Virus record (IMG/VR): IMGVR_UViG_3300044858_000658
Location: 1-38,961 of that record
Reading direction: 5' to 3' (one strand)
Length of the DNA: 38,961 bases
From: a virus
Within the stretch, counting starts at the first letter, position 1. Every line of letters begins with the position of its first letter. Both the position numbers and the translations under genes were made by a program. Below, in pieces: positions 9,601 through 31,187 of this stretch. Below the pieces are notes generated by a model. The model was not told the DNA's origin. It saw nothing but the letters and a program-made list of their open reading frames with translations, and did no database searches.

Positions 9601-9967
9601 ATCTATTGGTTTGCGGCCCGACGATCTCGCCAATCACCAGAAGGTGCTGTTTGAAATGTCTCGGGGCGAGAACAAGATCCGCTTTGAGCGCGAGCGCATC
9701 ATCCGCAACACACGCGATGCCACTCTCAAGGGCGACACTAAGCGTCTGGAGAAGATGGCTCAGGAGCAGAGCAAGTTCAATGTGCGCTATCCAGAGTACG
9801 AGATAACCAAGGAAAACATCGACCGGTCGCTTGATATGTCGATTGAAGAACTCTTGGACTCATTCAAGGGATTCCGTCCCACGGACAAGAACATGCGTAT
9901 CTTTGCGCCGACTGCAATTGAGTCCGGTCGTGCGTTGGCTGAGAGCCGCGAAAAGAAGAAAGAATAA
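3695..9967 (+). CDS. Giant polyvalent internal virion protein with metallopeptidase-like motif and LPD38-like C-terminal region
   Basis: The product has 2090 residues. The ATG at 3695 has AAGGTAG upstream. Regions in order: a short N-terminal segment; hydrophobic Gly/Ala-rich helices (about 150-230, small-residue patterns typical of membrane insertion); Pro/Ala linkers with two copies of RIEPTFEAPAP (about 370-420); coiled coil (about 420-830); a domain with H934-E-L-L-H938, the zinc-peptidase HExxH signature; then a long helical part. Within the last part, about 1520-1760 contains FVTRLAFIHYLSAAGSAIL and FLLQFLHYPMFITIRWMQ, and I judge it to resemble the large polyvalent protein domain LPD38. 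Large proteins of this kind are thought to be packaged and ejected with the DNA. The zinc ligand beyond HExxH is not identified, so peptidase activity is a prediction. Confidence 0.8.
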   Translation: MQKAYNPATGEVLFLVGDQWVKPSQVAQNPQTGEYAYLVNNNWELFKPPAAPAPAAQQPVADETERLLRRFPAPKESVFRQVADVPLGVAKGFTQGVRMMANVFGAGSDTSNTIKSAEDYLSGLMSAQAKNDRQAIARIMKDAEDKGVADQVLAGVKAFSVAPVDTLSSAFGTAGPIILSALGAKLLGAGALASTGISALMGAGMGAGTIKGTIYEETKRALIEAGADPAEAEKRAELAQRYDGKNLDQILLGTVIGGVAGVGPLEKGAASALARRILGATTAKEVAETAAAPVAQSAIRQRAVAGVKEAVPEFGQAFQEQTAGNVAQQREGFNVPTFRGAVGAGTLEGLAGLSLGALTGGAPPAEPAPAPERIEPTFEAPAPAPAPATAPAPGRIEPTFEAPAPVAPPSQPRITPGASAPLSPEEIEAKVADYSRFMPEEDARRVVLEEQQKAAEAAEAEATAAVTAPPAPAPAPELDPVLQRLKDLTQERIDAGVPPQQAALQALEQLQQEQQADEDAAKAAAEGEQRVAEPVTPPSGEGIGVAGVPSEQPPAGGVAGTERTGVVPTEADVGQPPAREGEQPSAVTPKVEETLEEADARFAAEDAAYQKQVDEDKSTGQFHAQTAFDQRGAYKDLDDAIDSYRENLADTLTEQGITDPNRFNVTLDAFNAEVAKLKAAEAPAAAPAPASVVEAPKGKRGRKPLPPEQQAKSEERRKEQRREANAAAREVERLKAELAKAKETVEPGNYPNETEYSEAKISQGMRRKRALAALYDFSRTNRNKPGQEAKAVLEAEASKQEIDDIAKGHAVRKQAAKKVSPQQKDESRTAEAVNPKLKGVTTGLQAIGVLLRTGTIFQKLMAMRIRNSVRNVKVVILEKDDPTPSALLTDAVLPYWESARALYVHDDATGADTVYIRGESFGADQGLNNVTVLHELLHAATAQKLQLALRLMKRGLDSGAPVVKAAKDIQETMRAVADDFVRQNKAGTIPRHVAMLFANTGGAIITDVKEFVAYGLSDPIFQRYLNSITDVVEPSETFFSRFVDGIRALFGIPEDMHTAMTNLVNATDKLISSPKTERMRLLEEKDKKLAKVLGEKQRVSPQTKDKRTLDEIDKEVDEALLKFQQSKTAEEAAEKVGLLHSLRRWEDLKRYFNSLYNTLDAKRLGTVLSIVPTDVVSDWGSGKVPSLKDTNDLLVDMRNMQYQLVTSAAEVSENMVRAIKKDPSLYDKLAEVMSVATDVRVDPAVDNRNKKLSDLYNDLGTEGQRIYKEVRDYYTRMVELYSSLLDAQIQEANLPPDAKKAIMAEIRRKFELDKKIVPYFPFVRNRGTHWLRVKPDPKSPSQFYMLGSIAERDAVAAAIAEKQGKTVKELFDGGVFKAGDSIETLRKMDDTVGFSEKVKDIFSQIDKMSSLGPKDKEAVKNSVYELYLATVPEQSFRKGFIERKDVAGYSTDVVRAFSSSSLRFASQLPRIKYGQKLRMSLFAGRKSLEGNPDQAKLERFVGEMETRVDQELNPDIRKGTWESTVDFVTRLAFIHYLSAAGSAILQGVGILYGASTIGARHGYGATALEMGKMMRIFGEYSIIKKNTDGTTSIKPPSVATSKRVATNPMERRAIREVFGSITEHTLSSEVLGRGRVSTAKFEGRGSMVGRGLSTVVGGLFHTTERLVRETLFMTSFRLSMKEGQKKGLKGDELFDYAKRQAVADVYDSVGNMREENRPPMFRNATGRFLLQFLHYPMFITIRWMQEFKRMLPFMGNEAKFQAFKEFAGIMGTTYLLGGVVALPFVKEMAGFIAAAFDDWDEEDKPADMRNMSYWTWWANVWLPEYLGQVGIFGKSLNDLTGMSEQELAAVITRGPVNALTGRDISSRVSISPTDMLLGGPDKETRTTREGAIALALERAGPAANMMLSYMDAYDAWQNGDMQKTMEKMLPAVARNVVIAEKYRKEGVKDYKGNILIGEDSFTKGDYLYQSIGLRPDDLANHQKVLFEMSRGENKIRFERERIIRNTRDATLKGDTKRLEKMAQEQSKFNVRYPEYEITKENIDRSLDMSIEELLDSFKGFRPTDKNMRIFAPTAIESGRALAESREKKKE

Positions 9968-21643: not shown

Positions 21644-21659
21644 CCTAACAAAAGTTAGG
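21644..21659. promoter_or_regulatory. CCTAAC-N4-GTTAGG palindrome, site 1
   Basis: Perfect 16-bp form (centre AAAA). It lies between the terminator at 21669-21691 and the promoter at 21579-21606, about 38 bases upstream of the -35 box. Confidence 0.75.
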
Positions 21660-21668
21660 CACGGGCGT

Positions 21669-21691
21669 AAAAAAGCCCCGCAGCGCGGGGC
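21669..21691 (-). terminator. Rho-independent terminator after the HTH-DUF3310 gene
   Basis: On the minus strand GCCCCGC-GCT-GCGGGGC (7-bp stem, 3-base loop) is followed by six T. It ends the transcript that comes from the 27.7 kb promoter and separates it from the replication transcript. Confidence 0.85.
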
Positions 21692-21736
21692 ATGCGGGGC
21701 AGTTGGGGTGTTATCCCCCTGGAGAGACAAATGCAC

Positions 21737-22252
21737 TCATGCCGTGGTGTTCAGCACATCACGCAGCTTCATAGCGTACCAAGCCATCTTGCCAGCGTCA
21801 ACTTCGGCTTCGCCTTTCTTGCCTACACGGGAGGCGTACTTCAAGGCGCTACCCTTGAGGTAACCAATGAACTCCTCCTTGGTCAGCTTGGCCTGGATGA
21901 AGTCGATGGTCTCGATCCCACCTGCCTTGTAGTGGGCCGGGTGGTTGACCAAGTCGTCCTTCGGGTTGTGCGCCAGTCGGGTCACATCCTCGTGGAACTT
22001 GGCCTTGGGAAACAACTCTTGTTGCACTGCGGGAGGCACGGGCACAGTCACGCTGAACGTGTTGTTGTGCACCGCATCAATGTTGACTTCCTTCAACGTC
22101 GGGCTCGGTGCCTTGGGCTTCTTGTACTTGATTGCATACACCAAACTAACCTTTACGCCCAGTGCTGCGGCCACCTCTCGGGCCTTGGCCTGAGGGTTCT
22201 TAGCCAGATAGCGGCGGATGTGTTCACTCATTGACAGTTTCTTGCGACCCAT
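21737..22252 (-). CDS. HTH-DUF3310 fusion protein
   Basis: The product has 171 residues; the ATG has AAGGAG 7 bases upstream. Residues about 8-45 (SEHIRRYLAKNPQAKAREVAAAL, GVKVSLVYAIKYKK) look like a DNA-binding helix-turn-helix. Residues 102-168 (VNHPAHYKAGGIETIDFI, YLKGSALKYASR, KMAWYAMKL) are the DUF3310 domain, related to the T7 gp1.7 nucleotide kinase group. The fusion could join a regulator to a nucleotide-sensing or kinase part. It is the last gene before the terminator at 21669-21691. Confidence 0.8.
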   Translation of the reverse strand: MGRKKLSMSEHIRRYLAKNPQAKAREVAAALGVKVSLVYAIKYKKPKAPSPTLKEVNIDAVHNNTFSVTVPVPPAVQQELFPKAKFHEDVTRLAHNPKDDLVNHPAHYKAGGIETIDFIQAKLTKEEFIGYLKGSALKYASRVGKKGEAEVDAGKMAWYAMKLRDVLNTTA

Positions 22253-22454
22253 TTTGGGGCTCCTTCAGTTTCAGTTCGTCTCTAACATACTCGGTAAGAA
22301 CAGCACGCATCTGCGCTTGCTTGTCATCGGGGTGGTACTTGTTGAAGTACTCCATGACCTCTTGGCTTAGACGTATGCTCGTACAGAAAAGGGCGGGTTT
22401 CTTACCAGGGCCGCGCCCCTTACGCTTTGGTTGCTCAGCTATCTCCTCTAGCAT
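22224..22454 (-). CDS. Ribbon-helix-helix-like small regulator
   Basis: The product has 76 residues. The ATG at 22454 has AAGGAG 5 bases upstream and overlaps the previous stop as TAATG. A basic N-terminus (KRKGRGPGKK) precedes a segment with ribbon-helix-helix features (LFCTSIRLSQEVMEYFNKY, then MRAVLTEYVRDEL), similar to BrnA/CopG-type repressors. No toxin gene accompanies it, so a plain regulator is more likely than an antitoxin. It is a good candidate for binding one of the palindrome families nearby. Confidence 0.65.
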   Translation of the reverse strand: MLEEIAEQPKRKGRGPGKKPALFCTSIRLSQEVMEYFNKYHPDDKQAQMRAVLTEYVRDELKLKEPQNGSQETVNE

Positions 22455-22684
22455 TAACACTCCTTTGGTTGAAACAATCTTCCTTCGGCCTTGCACGGGC
22501 CTCGGGTTCGGTTATCGATGCAGGTGCCGATCCCTTTGCTTGCTTTGAAGGGGTTGGCGGCACAGCGCATAACCAAGTTGCCCGAGTAGACGCTAGGACT
22601 ATCCTCGCTCGGTCGGTAATGCTTGCATCGTTTGCACAGTTCACGTTGGGTTCCCCATTCATACTTCGGTAGGGTGAAAGGCAT
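22454..22684 (-). CDS. Small Cys-rich, probably zinc-binding protein
   Basis: The product has 76 residues. Cysteines are placed as LCKRCKHY (two), MRCAANPF, GTCIDN, GPCKAEG and a final PKEC, suggesting one or two metal sites. The ATG has no strong Shine-Dalgarno. The stop overlaps the next start as TAATG. Function unknown. Confidence 0.6.
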   Translation of the reverse strand: MPFTLPKYEWGTQRELCKRCKHYRPSEDSPSVYSGNLVMRCAANPFKASKGIGTCIDNRTRGPCKAEGRLFQPKEC

Positions 22685-22690
22685 GTTGCT

Positions 22691-22810
22691 TCAATAGATT
22701 GCAAAACCTATCAGCATAACCACAAGCAACACGGCACATACCACCAGGGATAAGACCAATCGCCCCACTAACTCAAACGCTTTGTCCATCTCCTCCGTCT
22801 GCCTGTCCAT
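22691..22810 (-). CDS. 39-residue single-pass membrane protein
   Basis: The ATG at 22810 has AAGGAG 8 bases upstream, within the end of the preceding gene. The first 17 residues (MDRQTEEMDKAFELVGR) are polar. The other 22 (LVLSLVVCAVLLVVMLIGFAIY) are one hydrophobic helix reaching the C-terminus. This is typical of tail-anchored small phage membrane proteins. Possible roles are holin-like, membrane anchoring or host modulation; none is proven. Confidence 0.6.
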   Translation of the reverse strand: MDRQTEEMDKAFELVGRLVLSLVVCAVLLVVMLIGFAIY

Positions 22811-22958
22811 CTCGCTTACTCCTTTCCTGCATCATGGCCTCGGCTACATCGAACGCAATCTCAGCGATGCTCTCGGGGTTGGAGGGGGCAGCACCCGCGC
22901 TGACCCATCCAAGCATCGCCAATCCTGCGTAGAAATCTCTGAGGTGTTTGTCATCCAT
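22773..22958 (-). CDS. Small conserved phage protein (AGLAMLGW type)
   Basis: The product has 61 residues from the ATG at 22958; an upstream in-frame ATG at 22973 lies inside the CTAAC palindrome and would give 66. The pattern DFYAGLAMLGW, ESIAEIAFDVAEAMMQER is common in small phage proteins of unknown role. The C-terminus is Gly/Asp-rich. Its end overlaps the start of the 39-residue membrane protein gene. Confidence 0.65.
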   Translation of the reverse strand: MDDKHLRDFYAGLAMLGWVSAGAAPSNPESIAEIAFDVAEAMMQERSKRDGQADGGDGQSV

Positions 22959-22966
22959 CAGTACAC

Positions 22967-22980
22967 CTAACATTTGTTAG
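22967..22980. promoter_or_regulatory. CTAAC-N4-GTTAG palindrome, site 2, over a stop-start junction
   Basis: 14-bp palindrome (centre ATTT on the plus strand). On the minus strand it holds the TAA stop of the gene upstream (22977-22979) and an ATG (22971-22973) in frame with the next gene. Confidence 0.7.
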
Positions 22981-23132
22981 AGCAACGCCTCAGGTGCGCC
23001 CTCGGTGGGGTCTACCTTCTTCTTGCGTTGTCGTGGTTGTTTGTATGGCTGACCCTTCCATGTCGGGAAGGGCCAGACCTTCGGTGGCGGGTCTAGCGCG
23101 TCCGCTTTTCGACGGGTTTTGCCAGTAGCCAT
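22977..23132 (-). CDS. Small basic Pro-rich protein
   Basis: The product would have 51 residues: a Lys/Arg-rich start (MATGKTRRKADAL), a Pro/Trp-rich middle (DPPPKVWPFPTWKGQ) and a basic tail. It fills an otherwise empty gap between two small genes, overlaps the previous gene by 40 bases and ends in the palindrome. No strong Shine-Dalgarno is present. Plausible but not certain. Confidence 0.45.
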   Translation of the reverse strand: MATGKTRRKADALDPPPKVWPFPTWKGQPYKQPRQRKKKVDPTEGAPEALL

Positions 23133-23251
23133 CGGTCACCCAATCTACGCACGGACTTCACCCATTGCCGTTGGTTGTGCCTCTGCGTGTGGATAGGCAC
23201 GTAATCAACAGCGAACAGTTCGCGCACCATCTTCAATGCTTTGGTGTTCAT
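23093..23251 (-). CDS. Small basic conserved phage protein
   Basis: The product has 52 residues from the ATG at 23251, which has AAGGAG 5 bases upstream; a second ATG just before it overlaps the previous stop. The sequence (MNTKALKMVRELFAVDYV, then QRHNQRQWVKSVRRLGDRWLLA) is basic, with a pattern I recognise from other environmental phages. It is a possible nucleic acid-binding protein. Function unknown. Confidence 0.6.
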   Translation of the reverse strand: MNTKALKMVRELFAVDYVPIHTQRHNQRQWVKSVRRLGDRWLLAKPVEKRTR

Positions 23252-24108
23252 CATTGCTCCTTCACTTCCGGCGTGATCACGAATGCGTCGGCTTTGACAC
23301 GGCAACCCACATCTCGAACCATCTGGTGATCTTCCACCAGCTTGAGCATGCCGATCTTCTCTCGCATGTAGTAGGGCAAGGTATCGTTCGTGTATGTCTG
23401 TGGTTCGCCTTTGCCCTGCACCACGATGTAGCGATCACTTTCCAATACTACGACAAGCGCCTCGCCTTTGTCAAACAGATCCTTGACATTGTCAATGATC
23501 ATGCAAACTTCCATGATCTCGTCGTACTTGTCTTTGTACTGGGCTCGATTCGGGAACTCAGCAAGGTACTGATCCATGTGGTTGGCTGTGAACTGATCTG
23601 AATTCTCCATAAGCTCCGCACGCCTACGATTCACATCCCAACTGATGTTAGATCTAGCACGGCCAAGAACTGCCTCGGCTTCCTCGCGTACCTTGTCGAG
23701 ACGCTCACTCGTACCCAGTCGGTAGAAGTGCTTGCGTATGGCGAGCAGTGCCTTCTCGGAGCTTTCAGTCCTGTAGCCACTACCGCGCTCACGCTTGGCG
23801 TCGATGCGCTCGTTCTTCACGACCAACTTGTAACCTGATCGGCAGTACTCGACGCCGATAGAGCCTAGCATCTCCCCACCCTCGGAGATGGTGACCTTAG
23901 TAGCTATGGCTTCGGTGCTCCAGATTCCGTGGTCGGCCACCGTGAAGATCCAGTTGGGCTTAGCCAACACCAGAGGGAACAGAGTGTCGTGAAGGTACTT
24001 GTTGATCTTGCGCTTGGGTTGCTCGACCGATTCAAATTCCTTGTTAAGGCGCACGTTGGGTTGAGTGAGCATTGCGCCTGTCTGCTCGGCTATGTTTGGA
24101 GTGATCAT
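23251..24108 (-). CDS. Hypothetical early protein, 285 residues
   Basis: The ATG at 24108 (MITPNIAEQTGAML) is chosen because the upstream extension has low-complexity sequence and crosses a palindrome. No strong Shine-Dalgarno is present. It shows a mixed alpha/beta N-terminal half (FTVADHGIWSTEAIATKVTI, GSIGVEYCRSGYKLVV) and a helical middle with many charged residues. No known domain recognised. It lies in the same transcript as the AAA/VWA pair, directly after the gene at 24159, so a shared process is possible. Confidence 0.65.
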   Translation of the reverse strand: MITPNIAEQTGAMLTQPNVRLNKEFESVEQPKRKINKYLHDTLFPLVLAKPNWIFTVADHGIWSTEAIATKVTISEGGEMLGSIGVEYCRSGYKLVVKNERIDAKRERGSGYRTESSEKALLAIRKHFYRLGTSERLDKVREEAEAVLGRARSNISWDVNRRRAELMENSDQFTANHMDQYLAEFPNRAQYKDKYDEIMEVCMIIDNVKDLFDKGEALVVVLESDRYIVVQGKGEPQTYTNDTLPYYMREKIGMLKLVEDHQMVRDVGCRVKADAFVITPEVKEQ

Positions 24109-24133
24109 TGCTTTCTCGCTTTCTTGGTTGTTA

Positions 24134-24147
24134 CTAACAGTTGTTAG
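24134..24147. promoter_or_regulatory. CTAAC-N4-GTTAG palindrome, site 3
   Basis: Centre AGTT on the plus strand. It lies in the gap between two minus-strand genes, about 26 bases upstream of the ATG at 24108. Confidence 0.7.
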
Positions 24148-24158
24148 GGTCGGCTGTG

Positions 24159-25025
24159 TTACCAGTCGAACTTGCTCAGGATGGTGTCCACCCGAGACTT
24201 CATGGTCTCCCGCACGATGGGGGATTCCTTGATCGCTTCGATGTCTGCGCCCACCATTGCTTGCTCCAACTGACGGCGGGCTTCTTCCAACTTCGGATCT
24301 CCGGTTACGTTGAGCTTGGTAAGCAACGCGCACAGATCGGTGGCGTTGGTAACCAGAGTCTCGTGGTAACGCTTCTTGGGTTTGTCGTCGTTGCTCGTGC
24401 TCGGCTCATCGGTCAGCTTCTCGCTCATCGCCGTCAGCGTGGCATGCAGTCGCTCCCACGGCTCACGCATAGCCTCGGCCAAGCGCAGGTCATAGTCGGC
24501 TGCGTACTTCTGCTGTAGCTCCTGCAACTCTTCGTTGGCTACATCCAGTCGGAAGTCACCCGCCTCAGGCAGAGGGGAGATGACATAGCGGAACCCGAAC
24601 CGATCCCGCACCTCATCCAATGATGGGTAGTCCTCGGCCTTGTACAGCTTGCCCAGGTGCAGGGGTGCATCGTTGAGCAGTTGCGGGTACGCAAGGAAGA
24701 AGTTGTCGCAGAACATGTTGAACTTCTGCTCGGCCTCGTTGATGAACGCCTTGTAGTCAAGGAACATCGAAGTAGGCAACAGACGCTCGCCCTTGTCTGC
24801 CCACGGCAGGGTCATACGCAGGTGCTTGACACGGCAATGCGCCGCGTACTTCTCAATGTCTTTGCGCAGGCTAGTACCCGCAAACAGATCCTTCATGAAC
24901 TTGCCTGCGTTGATACTCGCGTTGGCGTTGGTGTTGACTGCGTCGGTTACTTCGCGGTCGAGCTTGGATGCGGGCCACACGCTGATGTTGAGTGAGGCAA
25001 GAACGGCTGATGATGAGATGGACAT
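24159..25025 (-). CDS. Helical hypothetical protein, possibly DUF3150-like
   Basis: The product has 288 residues; AGGAG lies 6 bases before the ATG. The N-terminal part contains SISSSAVLASLNISVWPASKLD and LPTSMFLDYKAFINEAEQKFNMFCDNFFLAYP; the rest is helical with a charged linker. The layout recalls DUF3150 proteins, which I recall near MoxR/VWA pairs in phages, but I cannot confirm that without a search. Its place in the AAA/VWA transcript makes it a candidate partner or substrate of that pair. Confidence 0.6.
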   Translation of the reverse strand: MSISSSAVLASLNISVWPASKLDREVTDAVNTNANASINAGKFMKDLFAGTSLRKDIEKYAAHCRVKHLRMTLPWADKGERLLPTSMFLDYKAFINEAEQKFNMFCDNFFLAYPQLLNDAPLHLGKLYKAEDYPSLDEVRDRFGFRYVISPLPEAGDFRLDVANEELQELQQKYAADYDLRLAEAMREPWERLHATLTAMSEKLTDEPSTSNDDKPKKRYHETLVTNATDLCALLTKLNVTGDPKLEEARRQLEQAMVGADIEAIKESPIVRETMKSRVDTILSKFDW

Positions 25026-25052
25026 GGTTCGCTCCTATGTTTTACGGTTGCT

Positions 25053-25066
25053 CTAACAATTGTTAG
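25053..25066. promoter_or_regulatory. CTAAC-N4-GTTAG palindrome, site 4
   Basis: Centre AATT, so the whole 14 bp is a perfect palindrome. It lies in the gap just upstream of the Shine-Dalgarno of the gene starting at 25025. Confidence 0.7.
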
Positions 25067-25070
25067 GTGG

Positions 25071-25310
25071 TTAGGACTTCTCAGGTTTACCCGCCAACTT
25101 CGCCATGTTGTACAGGTCGGTGCCGAGTAGCCTGAGGTTGCCGATGAAGTGGGTGTCGTTGCTGTAGATGTGGTGCGTGTTGGGCTCAGGGCTAGGCCGA
25201 TACTTCTCTTCGTACCTCTCTGCCTTACCCAACAGTTCAGCAACCGTAACTGCATCCTTGAGATCGAGGACGTAGTTGGTGTATTCAAGAGTGAGGATTG
25301 CCTTAGACAT
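25071..25310 (-). CDS. Hypothetical small protein next to the VWA gene
   Basis: The product has 79 residues. The ATG at 25310 has AAGGAG 6 bases upstream. The sequence (MSKAILTLEYTNYVLDLKDAV, VAELLGKAERYEEKY, then GNLRLLGTDLYNMAKL) suggests a small alpha/beta protein. No family recognised. It lies 10 bases after the VWA gene and probably works with it. Confidence 0.6.
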   Translation of the reverse strand: MSKAILTLEYTNYVLDLKDAVTVAELLGKAERYEEKYRPSPEPNTHHIYSNDTHFIGNLRLLGTDLYNMAKLAGKPEKS

Positions 25311-25320
25311 TGCTGCTCCT

Positions 25321-26535
25321 TTATTCCCAGTCAGTGACATGAACTGTTTTGCCATTGGGAGCGACAGTCGTGTTACCCCCAACGATGCACCAGAGGACGG
25401 GGCACGACCAAGCACCGCCCCAATCGTCGCCCACATAACCGTCCGTAAGGACGATGACGCACTCAGGTTCAATCTTCTTCTCCTTCATGTACTCAGTGAT
25501 ACAGGTAGGCGAGGTGCCACCACCGCCCACGGGTTTGGTTGACTGCACAAGCGAGTCCATAGACTCAGGGCCGTAGGTCTCGTGTGCCACTACGCTGCTA
25601 CCCCAGTACAGCAAGTCCACCATCTCAGGCCGCACCGTTTCAAAGATAGCCTTCGACTCGGACAGGAACGCATTGAGTTCAGACCCACCGATGGAGCCAG
25701 AGGTGTCGATGGCCAACACGATGTGACCCACCGTCTCGCTCACTAGCGTAGGCATATACACACCCGAGCCGATGAACCGCCGGTTGACCCTGCGCCATGT
25801 GGATACATCCTTACCTGCACACACGGACTTCACGAACTCACGGAGTACATCTCTCCAGTCGATCTTGGGTGCAAGCAAGTCGCCCAACTCACGCGCCAGT
25901 CCACTCGTGCCTGAGCCTTTGACTTTCTGCTCGGCCATGACACCCTGACGGATGGCTTGGTCGATCTCGCGCTCAAGCTCCTTCTTCTCCTCCTCGGTCA
26001 GTTCACGCGCACCGTCCCAGTCGTGGTCGTCGAAGCCTTCGTCTTCACCGTCCCCGCCACCGCCGCCATTCTTCTGCTCCTGCTTGAGAATGTCGAACAC
26101 CTGCTTGGCATTCAGGCCACGGAACCGCTCATCGATCAGACCCAACAGCTTGCCGTCCTTGTCCTTGGGCATGGCAATGTCCACCTCGTACGGGTCGAGG
26201 TCACGCAGTTGCAGGTTGATCACGAAGTCACACGCACAGTTAGCGAGGTGGCTGTCCTCATCATGCAGCTTGCGCCATGTGGTCAGGTGCCGATACATCT
26301 TGTGCATAGCCTCGTGCAACACAACGAAGGCAAGCTCCTTCTCGTTGAGCATCTTGATGAACCCCGTGCCGTAGGTCTCGTCGCGTCCGTTGGTACGGGC
26401 AGTCGGAGTCTTGTCGTCCACGAAGGTCTTGCCCACCATCAGGACGCCGGACATGAGTGCGAACTTAGGGTTACGCAAGAGACTGATCTTCACCCGTTGG
26501 AGCTTGCGCTCCGGGGTCATGGTTGCTACTAACAT
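25321..26535 (-). CDS. Metallopeptidase-VWA protein (DUF2201-like)
   Basis: The product has 404 residues. The start is taken as the ATG at 26535, with AAGGAG 7 bases upstream; this ATG is inside a CTAAC palindrome. The N-terminal part has the zinc-peptidase motif H74-EAM-H78. A Gly/Asp-rich linker (156-175) follows. The C-terminal VWA domain has the MIDAS pattern DTSGS (277-281), T341 and D365 (LTDGY). This order matches the putative metallopeptidase plus VWA-like pair known as DUF2201. Proteins of this type work with MoxR AAA ATPases, and one is encoded directly upstream. Substrate unknown. Confidence 0.85.
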   Translation of the reverse strand: MLVATMTPERKLQRVKISLLRNPKFALMSGVLMVGKTFVDDKTPTARTNGRDETYGTGFIKMLNEKELAFVVLHEAMHKMYRHLTTWRKLHDEDSHLANCACDFVINLQLRDLDPYEVDIAMPKDKDGKLLGLIDERFRGLNAKQVFDILKQEQKNGGGGGDGEDEGFDDHDWDGARELTEEEKKELEREIDQAIRQGVMAEQKVKGSGTSGLARELGDLLAPKIDWRDVLREFVKSVCAGKDVSTWRRVNRRFIGSGVYMPTLVSETVGHIVLAIDTSGSIGGSELNAFLSESKAIFETVRPEMVDLLYWGSSVVAHETYGPESMDSLVQSTKPVGGGGTSPTCITEYMKEKKIEPECVIVLTDGYVGDDWGGAWSCPVLWCIVGGNTTVAPNGKTVHVTDWE

Positions 26536-26542
26536 TTGTTAG
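26529..26542. promoter_or_regulatory. CTAAC-N4-GTTAG palindrome, site 5, over a start codon
   Basis: Centre ATTT on the plus strand. On the minus strand it lies between the AAGGAG and the rest of the VWA gene and supplies the ATG at 26535, so bound protein or an RNA hairpin here would affect initiation. Confidence 0.7.
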
Positions 26543-26554
26543 CTCCTTCTTTGT

Positions 26555-27625
26555 TTACAGCAGGTCTTGGTTGTCGGCGACCCACTTGCTGAAGTCACGG
26601 TTACCGAACGCGATGGACTGCTTGCTCGTGTTGCGTGCAATGTTGATTGCGAAGGTTGCTTGCCACTCGGCTTGGAACCGCTTGACATACTCCATGAACG
26701 CAGAGAAGTTGGACTTCTCCGATGCTGCGATCAGACCGTAGATCACCACAGCACACGCACCGGGTTGGTCGGGCACCTTGGCACTCTTGGGGTCGGCAAT
26801 GATCGACTCGCGTGTGGGCATCTGGTCGGCGTAGGCAATGAACGCTTGCATATCCCGTGCACCTGCCTCACCCAAAGTACCTGCAAGCGCGGCGATGAGG
26901 GAGTCGGAACTGAAGTGGGCTCGTTGCTTGACGATGTTGGATGCCAACTCCAATGTGCGGGGGCAGATGTACCCGTCCTGCTGAGCGCGGGGGTTGTAGA
27001 TGTACGGGTTGTCCTTCTGTGTGCCGTCCAGATAGGAAGCAAGCACCTGAGGGAATCGGTCAACATACGCACACACCTCGGGAGCAATGCCGTGAGGGAT
27101 AGCCCAAGGCAACCACTGTTCAGCGGTGGGTTTGAGCACGGTAACTTTTGTTAGGCGTGCGCTAGTGTGGGCTTTCATGTTGTCGCCCACACCATCGGAG
27201 GACAGATTGCCCGTGGTGAAGATGATTGAGTCGGGATGGATAGGGATGTCGCCCAGGCGTGGGTTGGCTACCTCAAGCATGGGGTGGAGCATGTTCATCA
27301 CCGGGGCAGGGGCCTTGGTGAACTCGTCCATCATGATTGCCACGGGCTTGCCCTCTTCCAACAGGAATCTAGCGTTGGGGTAGTAGCGGGTAGTCTTGGT
27401 GGCGTGATCCACGACAGGCATTGCAATGTCGCCCAAGTCCATGTTGGGGCAGTCGATGTACGCCACGGGCAGACCAGTGCGCTCGCCGATGCGCTTGAGC
27501 ATGGATGACTTGCCGATGCCCGGCTCGCCACGCAGGTGGAAGCGGTTGCGCCGCACATTCACAAGCAAGTCCTCGGCTTCCTTGAGGGAGACGGTCTTGC
27601 CAAAGTTGATTTCGGTTTTTGCCAT
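26555..27625 (-). CDS. MoxR-type AAA+ ATPase
   Basis: The product has 356 residues. Walker A is GEPGIGKS (33-40), Walker B IMMDEF (97-102), sensor 1 TTGN (137-140), and an arginine near 157 is a candidate finger. This matches the MoxR branch, whose members remodel partner proteins and are coupled to VWA proteins. The VWA-metallopeptidase gene follows 19 bases later. It is the first gene behind the perfect promoter at 27712-27740. Together they look like a phage-encoded chaperone-like machine; target unknown. Confidence 0.9.
   Translation of the reverse strand: MAKTEINFGKTVSLKEAEDLLVNVRRNRFHLRGEPGIGKSSMLKRIGERTGLPVAYIDCPNMDLGDIAMPVVDHATKTTRYYPNARFLLEEGKPVAIMMDEFTKAPAPVMNMLHPMLEVANPRLGDIPIHPDSIIFTTGNLSSDGVGDNMKAHTSARLTKVTVLKPTAEQWLPWAIPHGIAPEVCAYVDRFPQVLASYLDGTQKDNPYIYNPRAQQDGYICPRTLELASNIVKQRAHFSSDSLIAALAGTLGEAGARDMQAFIAYADQMPTRESIIADPKSAKVPDQPGACAVVIYGLIAASEKSNFSAFMEYVKRFQAEWQATFAINIARNTSKQSIAFGNRDFSKWVADNQDLL
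27142..27153. promoter_or_regulatory. TAAC-N4-GTTA palindrome core inside the MoxR gene
   Basis: 12-bp core of the CCTAAC family (centre TTTT) inside coding sequence, where it encodes Leu-Thr-Lys-Val. The right arm has the full GTTAGG; the left arm is imperfect. Confidence 0.4.
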
Positions 27626-27639
27626 TTGCTTTCTCCGTT

Positions 27640-27653
27640 CTAACTTCTGTTAG
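27640..27653. promoter_or_regulatory. CTAAC-N4-GTTAG palindrome, site 6
   Basis: Centre TTCT. It lies just upstream of the Shine-Dalgarno of the MoxR gene (start 27625) and downstream of its promoter. Confidence 0.7.
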
Positions 27654-27711
27654 GTTTGGTTGCGTCCGTGGTTGGTAGATAGTGGGTCGGACGAATTCCC
27701 ACTATCTTTAT

Positions 27712-27740
27712 ATTATAACACAATGTTATGTACATGTCAA
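27712..27740 (-). promoter_or_regulatory. Perfect-consensus sigma70 promoter of the AAA/VWA transcript
   Basis: On the minus strand TTGACA (27735-27740), 17 bases, TATAAT (27712-27717). It should start RNA near 27705, upstream of the MoxR gene. The spacer holds a TAACA-N3-TGTTA palindrome that reaches into the -10 box. It lies in the 157-bp gap at 27626-27782. Confidence 0.85.
27715..27729. promoter_or_regulatory. Operator-like palindrome ATAACA-CAA-TGTTAT
   Basis: Perfect 6-bp arms with a 3-base centre overlap the spacer and -10 of the promoter. The promoter at 29535-29563 has the same core in the same place. Confidence 0.6.
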
Positions 27741-27782
27741 GCGTTTCCCGTGGTACGGAGCTTGATTTGCACACCCAATCTT

Positions 27783-28937
27783 TCAGTCCTTGTCTCGCGT
27801 GACCCACTTGAGGTACTTCGCAGTCGGCACCGTCCCTTCCTTGGCGGGGGCGATCTCGATTACCTCGTCGCTGTGCCACTTGAAGATGATCTCGTCCATC
27901 GCACGGCTGATCTGCTTGGGGTCGAGGCTGAAGTTCTCCGGGCCCAGGAATCTGCGGTTGCCTTGTAGTGCAAAGTGGGACAGATACACGAACGCTTGGT
28001 AGAAGGACTCGGTCTCGTCCAGCGGGTTGCCGTCCTTGTCTACACCGCACCCCCTAACTTTTGTTAGGAACGCCTCAGTAGCTGCAACCCAAGCATCGTA
28101 CGGCTCACGGCTCTCCTTCTGCGCCCATGTGTCGTTGGCCTCGTCGCGCACATAGATGGATGTGTAGATAGCGGGCTTGTCGAGCGGGTTGCGCGTGAGG
28201 GTCGGATGCTCTTGGTCGAAGCGGAGTTCGGTACGCAGGGGCAGCTTGCGGCTGTGCGTGTTGGTTGTGGGTATCACCGCAATGATTTCCTCCTCGGCGA
28301 ATTCGATCCGGTCGTAGGTATCCACAACCTCCTCGTCGTTCTTGTAGTCGTAGTAGTTGTCGGTGTAGGTCTGCTTGCGCACCCCGATCATGCCCTTCAT
28401 GTAGCGGTAGAAGTCACCGTAGCGTGCGCGTACCTCGTTGGCCTTCTTGCGGTTGATCTTGGGCACATGGAGCGTGGGCACGGACTCGGGCAGGGGAGTG
28501 AGCGAGTTGGCCTTAGCGTCGTAAGTGAAGCGCATGCAGGTGTTGTGCGGCATCACGAACTTCTGCCCGTCCAGTGCCTCAAGCACTAGCCTGCCGTAGT
28601 CGGTGCGTGCGTCCTTGATGTAGCGCCCAAGAACCTCCACGATGAAGTAGCAGTCGCACGAACTCCACCGATACCTGCGGTTGGTTGCGGGGGTGCCAGG
28701 GGTGCCGATGGTCAAGGTGTCGTCGGCGTGGAAAGTAATCAGCGGCAGGTTGTAGAGGGAGAGGGTTACATCTCCGTTTCCTTCTCTACTGATACCGAAC
28801 TTGGTGGAGTCGGAGCGGCGACCCAATGGGAACCGCACAGGGACGCTTCCCCTGATCGGAGTGGTCTGGTTGAAGCGGCAGAGTGCCTCGGCGTGCGTAC
28901 TCAGGTACGGGAGGTGACGGTATGAGGTGTAGGACAT
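27783..28937 (-). CDS. Conserved phage protein, 384 residues, unknown function
   Basis: The start is MSYTSYRHLPYLSTHAEAL. The N-terminal half contains PIRGSVPVRFPLGRRSD and LYNLPLITFHADDTL, a pattern I have seen in hypothetical proteins of environmental phages. The middle has basic and acidic clusters; the C-terminus is mixed. No enzyme motif seen. There is no clear Shine-Dalgarno. Two CCTAAC palindromes are associated with it, one in its leader (28967) and one inside it (28053). Confidence 0.7.
   Translation of the reverse strand: MSYTSYRHLPYLSTHAEALCRFNQTTPIRGSVPVRFPLGRRSDSTKFGISREGNGDVTLSLYNLPLITFHADDTLTIGTPGTPATNRRYRWSSCDCYFIVEVLGRYIKDARTDYGRLVLEALDGQKFVMPHNTCMRFTYDAKANSLTPLPESVPTLHVPKINRKKANEVRARYGDFYRYMKGMIGVRKQTYTDNYYDYKNDEEVVDTYDRIEFAEEEIIAVIPTTNTHSRKLPLRTELRFDQEHPTLTRNPLDKPAIYTSIYVRDEANDTWAQKESREPYDAWVAATEAFLTKVRGCGVDKDGNPLDETESFYQAFVYLSHFALQGNRRFLGPENFSLDPKQISRAMDEIIFKWHSDEVIEIAPAKEGTVPTAKYLKWVTRDKD
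28053..28068. promoter_or_regulatory. CCTAAC-N4-GTTAGG palindrome, site 7, inside a gene
   Basis: Perfect 16-bp form (centre TTTT) inside the gene at 27783-28937. It encodes Leu-Thr-Lys-Val-Arg using CTA, ACA and AGG, codons that look uncommon beside the surrounding GC-rich choices. Confidence 0.65.
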
Positions 28938-28966
28938 TTTGGTTGCCTTTGTGGTTGCGTTGGTAT

Positions 28967-28982
28967 TCCTAACTATTGTTAG
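28967..28982. promoter_or_regulatory. CCTAAC-N4-GTTAGG palindrome, site 8
   Basis: Perfect 16-bp form (centre TATT), 30 bases upstream of the gene starting at 28937. A possible 12-codon reading frame on the minus strand (GTG at 29017) ends with a TAA at its edge. Confidence 0.75.
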
Positions 28983-29013
28983 GCGTTAGCTTTAGCTGTG
29001 TTCTTTGCGGTGT

Positions 29014-29091
29014 TCACAGTGCCTCCAATTCAATCAGCACCCACAGCAGGGCCAGCTTCACGAACACGAATAAAAGGTACCACTCCATCAT
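29014..29091 (-). CDS. 25-residue membrane peptide
   Basis: The ATG at 29091 overlaps the previous stop as ATGA; a second ATG follows at once, with TGGAGG just upstream. Almost all of it (MEWYLLFVFVKLALLWVLIELEAL) is one hydrophobic helix. It follows a gene for another small membrane protein. Very short, so only moderately certain. Confidence 0.45.
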   Translation of the reverse strand: MMEWYLLFVFVKLALLWVLIELEAL

Positions 29092-29231
29092 GGCCTCCAT
29101 ACGAACATATCCAGAAGCACGACCACCACGGCACAGCCGTAGACGGTTAGCCACACGAGCAGGTGCACGCCACCTGCCACTCTCTCCTGCACGCGCTTGG
29201 CGTACGCTTCCTCGATGCCTGTCTCGCTCAT
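29088..29231 (-). CDS. 47-residue single-pass membrane protein
   Basis: The ATG at 29231 overlaps the previous stop (ATGA) and has AAGGAGG 9 bases upstream. A charged N-terminus (MSETGIEEAYAKRVQERVAGG) leads to a hydrophobic helix (VHLLVWLTVYGCAVVVVLLDMFVW). A role at the inner membrane early in infection is a guess from position. Confidence 0.6.
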   Translation of the reverse strand: MSETGIEEAYAKRVQERVAGGVHLLVWLTVYGCAVVVVLLDMFVWRP

Positions 29232-29449
29232 TTGACTAGCCCTCCTTTGTTGTTGATGCCGATGAGGTCGGCGGGGTTGGTGAATAGCATGTAGTTGGAT
29301 TTGTGCATGGGGGCCACAGTCCAACTCTTTCTCTCCTCTCGGGCAATGTCATCACCGCAGGGGAGGCAGTAGCGGTAGCCCAGTTGGGCACGCTCGGTGG
29401 GGTAGTCGTCGCCGCACACACAGCAGGATCGCCAGTCGTGGTCAGTCAT
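29228..29449 (-). CDS. Small zinc-finger-like protein
   Basis: The product has 73 residues. The ATG at 29449 has AAGGAG 6 bases upstream. Two Cys pairs (CCVCGDDYP and YCLPCGDD, near residues 9-33) look like one zinc-binding site in the style of small DksA/TraR-like or treble-clef proteins. It is the first gene behind the perfect promoter at 29535-29563. Could act on host transcription; not shown. Confidence 0.65.
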   Translation of the reverse strand: MTDHDWRSCCVCGDDYPTERAQLGYRYCLPCGDDIAREERKSWTVAPMHKSNYMLFTNPADLIGINNKGGLVK

Positions 29450-29460
29450 CGTCGCTCCTT

Positions 29461-29474
29461 CTAACAAAAGTTAG
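29461..29474. promoter_or_regulatory. CTAAC-N4-GTTAG palindrome, site 9
   Basis: Centre AAAA. It directly adjoins the AAGGAG of the gene starting at 29449 and lies downstream of the promoter at 29535-29563. Confidence 0.7.
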
Positions 29475-29534
29475 GTTTGGGGTTGGTTGCTCGGGTCGGG
29501 CTGCGTCTCTCCGGGCGCTTTTTCAGTATATTTA

Positions 29535-29563
29535 ATTATAACACAATGTTACGGGAATGTCAA
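29535..29563 (-). promoter_or_regulatory. Perfect-consensus sigma70 promoter of the small-gene transcript
   Basis: On the minus strand TTGACA (29558-29563), 17 bases, TATAAT (29535-29540). The RNA should start near 29528, ahead of the zinc-finger gene at 29449. The spacer contains TAACA-N3-TGTTA (29539-29551), as at 27.7 kb. Confidence 0.85.
29539..29551. promoter_or_regulatory. Operator-like palindrome TAACA-CAA-TGTTA
   Basis: Lies across the spacer and -10 box of the promoter at 29535-29563 in the same register as the one at 27715-27729. The two spacers agree over the last 11 bases before the -10 box. Confidence 0.6.
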
Positions 29564-29776
29564 GTTTTTGGCTGAGCAGGTGGCTGAGAGGCAAGCGGGG
29601 TGTTTGGGGGGGGTGCGGAGCGGGTGTTGTTACGAGAAATGGGGAAGTTATAACTTTGGCAGTTGAGGCGTAACACAATTTTGGGCTGTAAGTTGTTGAT
29701 TTTGAAAAGGAAAGTTAGATAGTTAGATAGAATGTTATAATGTTAAATGAAAAAAAAAAAAATAACCTCGTAGAGG

Positions 29777-29791
29777 CTTGACAATGTCAAG
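29777..29791. promoter_or_regulatory. Palindromic operator CTTGAC-AAT-GTCAAG
   Basis: Third member of the CTTGAC-N3-GTCAAG family. It contains a TTGACA on each strand, but no good -10 box lies at 16-18 bases on either side, so here it may be a bare binding site. Confidence 0.5.
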
Positions 29792-29856
29792 AGTGGGCTT
29801 GCACTTGCCGTATGCCTCATTGTCAAGTCTCTACACAGATATACTCTTTTTTGGGC

Positions 29857-29869
29857 GTAACATTGTAAC
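29857..29869 (+). repeat. 13-bp repeat GTAACATTGTAAC, copy 1
   Basis: Identical to 30029-30041. It shares TAACATTGT with the operators in the two perfect promoters. Confidence 0.6.
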
Positions 29870-30021
29870 ATTAGGAAAATGTTGTTTAGAATCAAGCACT
29901 TAGGAGTGTTATGCTCGTAACAATACCCAATAACAACCTCTTTTTTTATCACTTCGTAGTACAGGGTTAACCCGCGATTTCAGTCCTTACGGTTACTAGA
30001 GTAAAAACCAAGGGTAAACCC

Positions 30022-30049
30022 TTTACCTGTAACATTGTAACAATATAAC
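30022..30049 (+). promoter_or_regulatory. Possible plus-strand promoter in the control region
   Basis: TTTACC (30022-30027), 16 bases, TATAAC (30044-30049): four and five matches to the consensus. The spacer holds GTAACATTGTAAC, and the -10 runs into a CTAAC-family palindrome. A terminator follows about 75 bases later with no gene between. Confidence 0.4.
30029..30041 (+). repeat. 13-bp repeat GTAACATTGTAAC, copy 2
   Basis: Identical to 29857-29869. It lies inside the spacer of the possible plus-strand promoter at 30022-30049. Confidence 0.6.
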
Positions 30050-30057
30050 ATTTGTTA
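30046..30057. promoter_or_regulatory. TAAC-N4-GTTA palindrome, site 10
   Basis: 12-bp core of the CCTAAC family (centre ATTT) with a full right arm GTTAGG. It overlaps the -10 box and likely start of the possible plus-strand promoter. Confidence 0.55.
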
Positions 30058-30073
30058 GGTCGGGCCCGATTCG

Positions 30074-30105
30074 CGTGGGCTACAGCCCCTCAGAGAACTG
30101 GTGCA
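30074..30105 (+). repeat. 32-bp direct repeat, copy 1
   Basis: Matches 30132-30163 at 30 of 32 positions. It starts CGTGGGCTACAGCC and ends AGAGAACTGGTGCA. The two copies flank a plus-strand terminator. Confidence 0.75.
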
Positions 30106-30108
30106 GGT

Positions 30109-30131
30109 AGCACGAACGGTCGTGCTTTTTT
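30109..30131 (+). terminator. Plus-strand rho-independent terminator with no gene upstream
   Basis: AGCACGA-ACGG-TCGTGCT (7-bp stem, 4-base loop) is followed by five more T. There is no plus-strand gene before it, which points to a short non-coding transcript. Confidence 0.75.
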
Positions 30132-30163
30132 CGTGGGCTACAGCCGCGCAGAGAACTGGTGCA
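30132..30163 (+). repeat. 32-bp direct repeat, copy 2
   Basis: See copy 1 at 30074-30105; two mismatches, both in the centre. The last 11 bases recur at 21626-21636. Confidence 0.75.
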
Positions 30164-30182
30164 TTCCGCAAACTCAGCTAGT

Positions 30183-30198
30183 CCTAACAAATGTTAGG
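30183..30198. promoter_or_regulatory. CCTAAC-N4-GTTAGG palindrome, site 11
   Basis: Perfect 16-bp form (centre AAAT). It lies just beyond the minus-strand terminator at 30222-30245, the same arrangement as site 1. Confidence 0.75.
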
Positions 30199-30221
30199 AA
30201 ACACTGACAAAGCGTGAACGC

Positions 30222-30245
30222 AAAAAAGCCCGCACTAGGCGGGCT
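30222..30245 (-). terminator. Rho-independent terminator after the 30.3 kb gene
   Basis: On the minus strand AGCCCGC and GCGGGCT (7 bp, 5-base loop) are followed by a T-run. It ends the transcript of the two genes at 30265-31037. Confidence 0.85.
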
Positions 30246-30264
30246 GTAGGTAGCAGGGAAAGGG

Positions 30265-30486
30265 TTAGCGGTGCAGATTGTTGTCGGTATCACCGTCCAA
30301 CCACCACGCTACATATTCGGTGATGCCGTGGGTACGGTGGCCATCGAACCCGAACACGGGCGGCTCGGACTCCTCATTCGGTGGTGCAACGAAGAATTCC
30401 AGGGCCCTTTCAAAGCGGTGTTGCAGGGCTCGCTCGAACCTTTCGGCGGTGATGATACCGGGGAGGGTCAATTGCTTTGGGGTCAT
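30265..30486 (-). CDS. Hypothetical small protein
   Basis: The product has 73 residues. The ATG at 30486 has TTAGGAG 7 bases upstream, and the TTAGG part is the arm of a palindrome. The sequence is MTPKQLTLPGIITAERFERAL, then an acidic stretch (PPNEESEPPVFGFDG) and YVAWWLDGDTDNNL. No family recognised. It is the last gene before the terminator at 30222-30245. Confidence 0.65.
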   Translation of the reverse strand: MTPKQLTLPGIITAERFERALQHRFERALEFFVAPPNEESEPPVFGFDGHRTHGITEYVAWWLDGDTDNNLHR

Positions 30487-30495
30487 TTCAGTGCT

Positions 30496-30511
30496 CCTAA
30501 CATTTGTTAGG
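30496..30511. promoter_or_regulatory. CCTAAC-N4-GTTAGG palindrome, site 12, over a ribosome-binding site
   Basis: Perfect 16-bp form (centre ATTT on the plus strand). On the minus strand its right arm runs into TTAGGAG, the Shine-Dalgarno of the gene starting at 30486. Confidence 0.75.
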
Positions 30512-30536
30512 AAGGGGGTTTCCCCCCTTCCCGTGG

Positions 30537-31037
30537 TCAGCCCAACTTCTCCACATCACCGCCCATGCGGCCGAACACATCCATCAGCACGGCCTTCTCA
30601 TCCGACCAGTCGGTTTCCTTGCCGTCCTCCTCCATCTTAAAGATCCGGTTAATCAGGGTTTTCAGGTCGGCGAGGTTCAGCGCCGCAGGGTCAGAGTCAC
30701 CAGACACTCGGTTTTGAGTTTTAATCCGACCCGCCGCATCTTTGACCCGCGACCAGTAAACATCGATGGTTCCCTGCTCGAAGCCTTTAGCCTTGAACGC
30801 TTCGACAAACTTGGTGCGCTCAGCTTTGATAGGGGCGGCGAGCTTGCCCTTAAGATCAAACCACTTGGTTGTCACCTTGCCATCAGCGCCGAGCAGGTCA
30901 AACGATTGATTCAGCGCCGTGGCGTAGGTCGACAACACTTCACCAGTCTTGCCTGCAATTTCCACTACAGCGGCGCGAGCCGAATCCAGGGAAACAACGG
31001 TGGCCGTGTTGGCCGGGGTCACAAGGGTAGCACTCAT
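30537..31037 (-). CDS. Hypothetical early protein, 166 residues
   Basis: The ATG at 31037 has GGAGA 8 bases upstream. The protein is helical, with an Ala/Val-rich start (SATLVTPANTATVVSLDSARAAVVEIAG), a Lys-rich middle (KGKLAAPIKAERTKFVEAFKAKG) and an acidic C-terminus. TIDVYWSRVKDAAGRIK could be a DNA-contact segment. No known family. It is the first minus-strand gene after the divergent late operon, so it could be among the earliest expressed. Confidence 0.65.
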   Translation of the reverse strand: MSATLVTPANTATVVSLDSARAAVVEIAGKTGEVLSTYATALNQSFDLLGADGKVTTKWFDLKGKLAAPIKAERTKFVEAFKAKGFEQGTIDVYWSRVKDAAGRIKTQNRVSGDSDPAALNLADLKTLINRIFKMEEDGKETDWSDEKAVLMDVFGRMGGDVEKLG

Positions 31038-31108
31038 GCTAGGTTCTCCAAACTACCTGGAATCTGCCAGGGATCAGATCGATCAGGACAGCCCCAATCG
31101 ATAAATCC

Positions 31109-31137
31109 ATATTCTCATATTTTGTGGTGCAAATCAA
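31109..31137 (-). promoter_or_regulatory. Weak candidate promoter for the 31.0 kb gene
   Basis: On the minus strand TTGATT (31132-31137), 17 bases, GAATAT (31109-31114). It is far from consensus compared with the other promoters, but is the best placed candidate for this transcript. Confidence 0.3.
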
Positions 31138-31173
31138 ATCTACAGTGAACATTAATTCGTGGTACAGCCTGAC

Positions 31174-31187
31174 CTAACAAATGTTAG
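31174..31187. promoter_or_regulatory. CTAAC-N4-GTTAG palindrome, site 13
   Basis: Centre AAAT; left arm complete (CCTAAC). It lies upstream of the weak candidate promoter for the gene starting at 31037. This is the rightmost member of the family. Confidence 0.7.

Follow-up and report, generated by a model that had tools for sequence, protein, structure and literature searches.

A Conserved AAA+ ATPase, Metallopeptidase-VWA and DUF3150 Gene Trio Shared by Viruses and Conjugative Plasmids

Introduction

Midasin (Rea1/MDN1), NorQ-NorD, RavA-ViaA and CobS-CobT are machines in which an AAA+ ring works with a partner bearing a VWA domain or its metal ion-dependent adhesion site (MIDAS) to remodel a client, the client differing from system to system. 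Midasin-type systems hold the client at an acidic residue through the MIDAS site, and the ring then pulls on it. To our knowledge, none of these four systems has a DUF3150 partner. Here, we describe genes for an AAA+ protein, a VWA protein and a DUF3150 protein in the virus record IMGVR_UViG_3300044858_000658, the whole analyzed stretch of which (38,961 nucleotides) is called the window.

Few phage genes without known function are as widespread as AAA/VWA pairs, which are present in hundreds of records, belong to the core genes of N4-like phages and often carry the label 'HNH endonuclease'. In the N4-like Schitoviridae, gp24 (AAA+) and gp25 (vWFA) belong to the 14 core genes and are middle, not late, transcripts in N4 (PMC4193335). 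Like the window, these phages combine a homologous AAA protein with a DUF2201 zincin-VWA protein, encoded by adjacent or nearly adjacent genes outside the late region; the identity to the window proteins is approximately 22–32%, and in G7C and DSS3phi2 the profile search detected no DUF3150 gene in the vicinity. The group 2.2 jumbo phages encode the same kind of domain pair, MoxR with a metallopeptidase-vWA protein, for which virion assembly was proposed in PMC7824862, whereas the window has a trio with a host-type promoter. The other published proposal, CobST, comes from PMC8651126, and the consulted parts of both papers describe no DUF3150 partner. The first-pass annotation of the window, which knew of no established function for phage pairs, had missed these two proposals.

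Outside phages, the plasmid pCAR1 (ORF101–DUF3150–ORF103), together with SXT/R391, R478, Rts1 and pRA1, shares the AAA, DUF3150 and VWA genes with the window. The pCAR1 version differs in its VWA protein of about 600 residues, annotated as NorD, and in the CbbQ_C domain of its AAA protein, and it resides on a plasmid, not in a phage; the gene group of pRA1 is interrupted by bet and exo. The pCAR1 operon is reported to be conserved in R478, Rts1, SXT and R391 and to be strongly transcribed in a host-dependent manner (PMC2642839). In the MoxR-vWA ternary conflict systems (PMC7159879), the third component is VMAP, FtsH or iSTAND instead of DUF3150, and none of these three domains was present among the Pfam matches of the six genes tested.

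Results

In the profile search of all fetched loci, the DUF3150, AAA and VWA genes were found on one strand in each of the 74 distinct viral loci that could be tested; 32 further loci, cut by contig ends, were left out. The gene order was AAA-VWA-DUF3150 in 66 loci and DUF3150-AAA-VWA in eight, and AAA-DUF3150-VWA in the cyanophage MinM2 (L101). That the three genes stay together in differing orders, in elements that are unrelated, implies a joint function. AAA and VWA genes but no DUF3150 gene were found within the 14–15 kb inspected in the N4-like phages G7C and DSS3phi2, in Mydo and inoa of the Vequintavirinae, and in PA5oct and Atu_ph07. About 45 of the first 100 loci had the open reading frame (ORF) of 79 codons, which other loci lacked. 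The first-pass annotation had reported a run of four genes behind a perfect promoter, and all four ORFs, each with a plausible ribosome-binding site, and the promoter were indeed in place (Table 1). The co-occurrence of the genes, without which its reading would have failed, was likewise borne out, but not its picture of a pair with two companions: the unit is the trio, with DUF3150 as the obligate third component and the 79-codon ORF as an optional companion.

The gene of the 288-residue protein comes after the VWA gene in relatives, and relatives are encoded in at least 575 viral stretches. The window protein taken alone did not match PF11348 (DUF3150; cut-off 24.9). Two of the aligned homologues scored above this cut-off (L094, 27.0; L042, 26.0), and 10 of 33 members matched at E ≤ 1. 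The MinM2 homologue is annotated as DUF3150, and the best BFVD fold match was a DUF3150 protein (E 9e-17). On these two scores, the MinM2 annotation and the fold match, the 288-residue protein is probably a divergent DUF3150 member. The single-sequence hhalign comparison of its family with the pCAR1 DUF3150 protein was not significant alone, though Pfam links both. No mention of DUF3150 was found in the literature searched.

The AAA gene passed the Pfam threshold of AAA_5 (PF07728, 24.1 bits, cut-off 22) and fell into phrog_1297 (2e-48). The best PDB match of its profile was Midasin (E 9e-22), and CobS was a weak match (4.9e-4). The model of MoxR proper, AAA_3 (PF07726), was absent among its Pfam matches at E ≤ 1. 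The protein has the Walker A motif (G33..GKS40), Walker B (D100, E101), the sensor N140 and the arginine R157, of which G33, G36, G38, K39, D100, E101, N140 and R157 were invariant in 79 unique relatives from viral contigs. With its AAA_5-type domain, intact key residues and an adjacent MIDAS-bearing VWA gene, it fits the broad Midasin/MoxR/NorQ/CobS-like class; the label 'MoxR-type' holds in this wide sense, not in that of the AAA_3 family.

The VWA gene matched PF13203 (DUF2201_N, 82 bits, cut-off 23.2), PF09967 (DUF2201, 55 bits, cut-off 26.4) and phrog_1314 (2e-84), and its model matched the MIDAS domain of MDN1 and the VWA domain of NorD, both of them parts of remodellers. Its product has HEAMH at 74–78, the downstream acidic residue D103 and the MIDAS residues D277, S279, S281, T341 and D365. 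Among 89 unique relatives from viral contigs, the five MIDAS residues were invariant, D103 was present in all, and HExxH was retained in 88, the exception (L049) having HDA followed by an alignment gap. The Walker, HExxH and MIDAS residues, to which the first-pass annotation had tied its reading, are thus essentially invariant within the viral family. Outside this family, HExxH was missing from two of eight Burkholderiales/Rhodovastum plasmid proteins (L103 and L105) and replaced by HQILH (HQxxH) in Atu_ph07, with MIDAS intact in all three. Because of these losses, MIDAS-based remodelling looks, from the residues kept, more central than proteolysis. The idea of the peptidase as the indispensable core activity was rejected as stated, two plasmid trios having kept MIDAS without HExxH.

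The 'HNH endonuclease' label of phrog_1314 has been copied into many RefSeq phage records. The significant Pfam matches of the VWA gene were DUF2201 domains only, and on DUF2201 metallopeptidase-VWA proteins the label seems to be a misannotation passed on between records. NCBIfam had no match for the window proteins.

The promoter upstream of the AAA gene has TG before the −10 box, and its spacer and −10 box include TAACA-TTG-TGTTA. The sigma-70 consensus was searched within 200 nucleotides of the AAA start in 46 distinct relatives, with shuffled sequences and other ORFs of at least 150 residues in the same loci as controls. Sites matching at least 11 of 12 positions were found in 25 of the 46 relatives (0.3% of shuffles, 1.6% of other ORFs), and sites matching at least 10 in 35 (3.7% and 3.3%, respectively). 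In the DUF3150-first loci, a strong promoter preceded DUF3150 in L042 and L043 (11/12 at 79 nucleotides) and in L094, L096, L097 and L098 (12/12, approximately 420–480 nucleotides upstream); L039, L041 and L051 had no strong promoter upstream of DUF3150, and L050 had just a 10/12 site. In AAA-first loci, no strong promoter was found at any of 69 DUF3150 or 60 VWA starts. Since the strong promoter precedes the first gene and not the internal starts, the trio behaves in most lineages as a single transcription unit, predicted to be readable by the host RNA polymerase. The first-pass annotation spoke of early synthesis from a very strong promoter; a very strong promoter is supported, and its type makes abundant synthesis of the trio early in infection probable.

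The trio sits inside an array of 14-bp palindromes, CTAAC-N4-GTTAG, of which 15 were found against 0.44 expected, all within 21645–31187 and none in the rest of the window. They lie mostly just 5' of genes, and two overlap start codons (26535 and 22973). Related half-sites, TAACA-N3-TGTTA, overlap the −10 boxes of both perfect promoters, the second of which (12/12) lies at 29563–29535. The sites resemble a set of repressor/stoperator sites, or else a start-associated or translation element. At 29752–29852, there is an inverted repeat with TTGACAATG/CATTGTCAAG, possibly a second operator. Most related lineages (L015–L101) have a repeated palindrome of their own, such as CTAACA-N1..3-TGTTAG, TTCCCAC-N-GTGGGAA or TTCCTAC-N2-GTAGGAA, where shuffles give one or two copies. 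The cultured phage MinM2 has its own array of 14 copies of GTTCAG-N-CTGAAC, 12 of them intergenic and eight placed 22–23 nucleotides upstream of the start codon that follows. In relatives there is also a promoter class with a TTGACA-N-TGTCAA palindrome over the −35 box (L067:10512, L092:981 and similar).

The sharing of the trio with conjugative plasmids had not been foreseen in the first-pass annotation. A tblastn search of plasmids gave 44 records with a relative of the 288-residue protein, mostly from Burkholderiales. The trio was found in all ten plasmids inspected, namely pCAR1, pRA1 and eight Burkholderiales/Rhodovastum plasmids, all eight regions of which had AAA, DUF3150-like and VWA-like genes in this order on one strand (with several small genes between AAA and the other two in the Simplicispira plasmid). 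Plasmid trios are often near type IV secretion system (T4SS) or ssb/bet/exo genes; T4SS genes directly followed the trio in four of the eight regions (L103, L188, L189 and L190). In pCAR1, the order is AAA-DUF3150 (307 bits)-VWA, next to ssb-recT and a lambda-type exonuclease gene, and in pRA1 it is AAA-hypothetical-bet-exo-DUF3150-VWA; the VWA proteins of both have an N-terminal HExxH and an acidic residue nearby.

In the integrative conjugative element (ICE) SXT, deletion of bet, exo, s067, s068 and s070 lowered transfer at most 10-fold (PMC2791158). By comparison with the pRA1 gene order, s067 and s068 would be the DUF3150 and VWA homologues. The SXT gene s063, whose deletion cuts transfer 100-fold, was considered as the AAA gene and dropped, being divergent from the recombination operon.

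Discussion

The motifs, the co-occurrence and the promoter support the first-pass view of a MoxR/VWA-like remodeller under a very strong promoter of the host type. Our preferred reading, held tentatively, is a three-component Midasin/MoxR-like remodeller that acts while foreign DNA becomes established, directed in the first place at a host takeover or defence target and in the second at the element's own replication/recombination complex. The trio would be transcribed by the host RNA polymerase from the near-perfect sigma-70 promoter. The AAA+ protein would form the ring-shaped ATP motor, and the zincin-VWA protein would dock on it, hold the client via the Mg2+ (MIDAS) site and possibly also cleave it. 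DUF3150, judging from its obligate presence, may be a dedicated adaptor or client-recognition subunit. So assembled, the machine would pull apart or inactivate a protein complex that hinders the establishment of incoming DNA. We infer complex formation, the early timing, the adaptor role and the host-directed target, the last being the earlier suggestion that a host complex is remodelled or a defence disarmed.

A unit common to phages and conjugative plasmids narrows the function to a need of both. Because conjugative plasmids carry the trio and need no capsid, the shared job is more likely DNA establishment than assembly. Several observations weigh against the remodeller reading. No target was found for the machine, and the DUF3150 model had no significant match in the PDB. 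The window proteins had no hit in PADLOC, although PADLOC catalogues defence and omits counter-defence. The plasmid trios do not carry the promoter signature, and the trio could do one thing in phages and another in plasmids. If s067 and s068 are the homologues, the module is dispensable for SXT transfer into a laboratory recipient.

The alternative that survives best, though we consider it doubtful, is that the machine works on the element's own replication or recombination proteins, for example by loading or stripping SSB/recombinase complexes, and has no host target. The recombination genes beside the trio in pCAR1 and within it in pRA1 are consistent with such a target, as are the SXT operon starting at s089, which encodes a RecA-independent recombination system (PMC4344509), and the exonuclease, DNA polymerase and SNF2-type helicase genes further along the trio's strand in the window. 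Several Burkholderiales plasmid trios adjoin T4SS genes instead, and neighbourhood is weak evidence, as genes with many different functions gather in the early regions of mobile elements.

Somewhat less credible, and in our opinion unlikely, is the virion-assembly chaperone and protease that Iyer et al. (2021) see in group 2.2 jumbo phages, where structural proteins would be folded or processed by the AAA/VWA pair. That proposal (PMC7824862) offers an archaeal virus tail-assembly precedent; an electrospray ionization tandem mass spectrometry note on the PA5oct ATPase and the roseophage structural genes near the gp24/gp25 homologues (PMC4193335) point the same way. Conjugative plasmids form no virions, however, and in the window the trio has a host-type promoter and occupies the non-structural half, divergent from terminase and portal; in N4 itself, the homologues are middle genes (PMC4193335). 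The plasmid occurrence and the early-type promoter therefore argue against virion assembly as the general role.

The trio's distribution also speaks against vitamin B12 as a general explanation. A viral cobaltochelatase, with AAA as CobS and VWA as CobT hijacking the host CobN for cobalamin, was published for a 'cobST' gene cluster that tailed viruses carry (PMC8651126) and could draw on the weak CobS profile match. We regard it as highly improbable for this locus: the proteins match AAA_5 and DUF2201 and no CobS or CobT model in Pfam (E ≤ 1) or NCBIfam (E ≤ 0.01), the retained zincin motif would be superfluous for a chelatase, and DUF3150 is an obligate partner. The CobST identity was rejected on the family tests; CobN was absent from 15 related phage records. 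Mosaic elements exchange gene blocks, and the occurrence of the trio in both phages and plasmids would suit three genes that merely co-travel by exchange of early-region blocks, but three gene orders of the same families and full motif retention at 25–40% identity are unexpected for passive travel and make this equally improbable.

Returning to the three-component remodeller, we may speculate, with considerable reserve, that AAA, DUF3150 and zincin-VWA form a general establishment machine of tailed phages, conjugative plasmids and ICEs. DUF3150 would hand a defence or repair complex of the host over to the ATP-driven, possibly proteolytic remodeller as DNA enters, and the pair-only N4-like and jumbo systems would use another adaptor. 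Cultured systems carrying the module are pCAR1, the IncA/C plasmids, ICE SXT and a cyanophage.

Other Features of the Window

Table 1. Positions of the trio, its companion ORF, the promoter and nearby palindromes in the window.
Feature	Position	Strand	Basis
AAA+ ATPase (AAA_5/Midasin-MoxR-CobS-like), 356 aa	26555..27625	-	Pfam AAA_5, phrog_1297, residue conservation, PDB profile match
DUF2201_N zincin-like metallopeptidase fused to DUF2201 VWA, 404 aa	25321..26535	-	Pfam, phrog_1314, conserved residues
79-codon ORF, optional companion	25071..25310	-	ORF and locus comparison
DUF3150-family protein, 288 aa, obligate third component, possible adaptor	24159..25025	-	Pfam matches of relatives, MinM2 annotation, fold match, co-occurrence
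Sigma-70 promoter TTGACA-17-TATAAT, 12/12, extended -10	27712..27740	-	Consensus match; kept in many relatives upstream of whichever gene leads the trio
Palindrome CTAAC-N4-GTTAG in 5' leader of AAA gene	27640..27653	.	
Palindrome across VWA start codon	26529..26542	.	
Palindrome upstream of DUF3150 gene	25053..25066	.	

A scan of genome contigs for VWA relatives gave a single match, on a 4.4-kb contig of a planctomycete metagenome-assembled genome; a weak scan with one peptide pattern only found no DUF3150 relative in genome contigs. Upstream of the AAA gene, a 384-residue gene (27783–28937) gave no family match; its tblastn relatives, at 22–38% identity, were present in about 25 loci, usually before AAA. 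The 1118-residue protein encoded at 6611–9967 resembles the C-terminal part of DarB-like antirestriction proteins (phrog_10089, 2e-36), and the 76-residue protein encoded at 22224–22454 weakly matches a phage antitoxin family (phrog_4692, 7e-5). Repeats occupy 1–178 and 970–1059, namely 12-bp tandem repeats (GACTGTCCCTCC / GACCGTTACTCC) at the contig end and 9-bp repeats GGTGGTACG inside an ORF.

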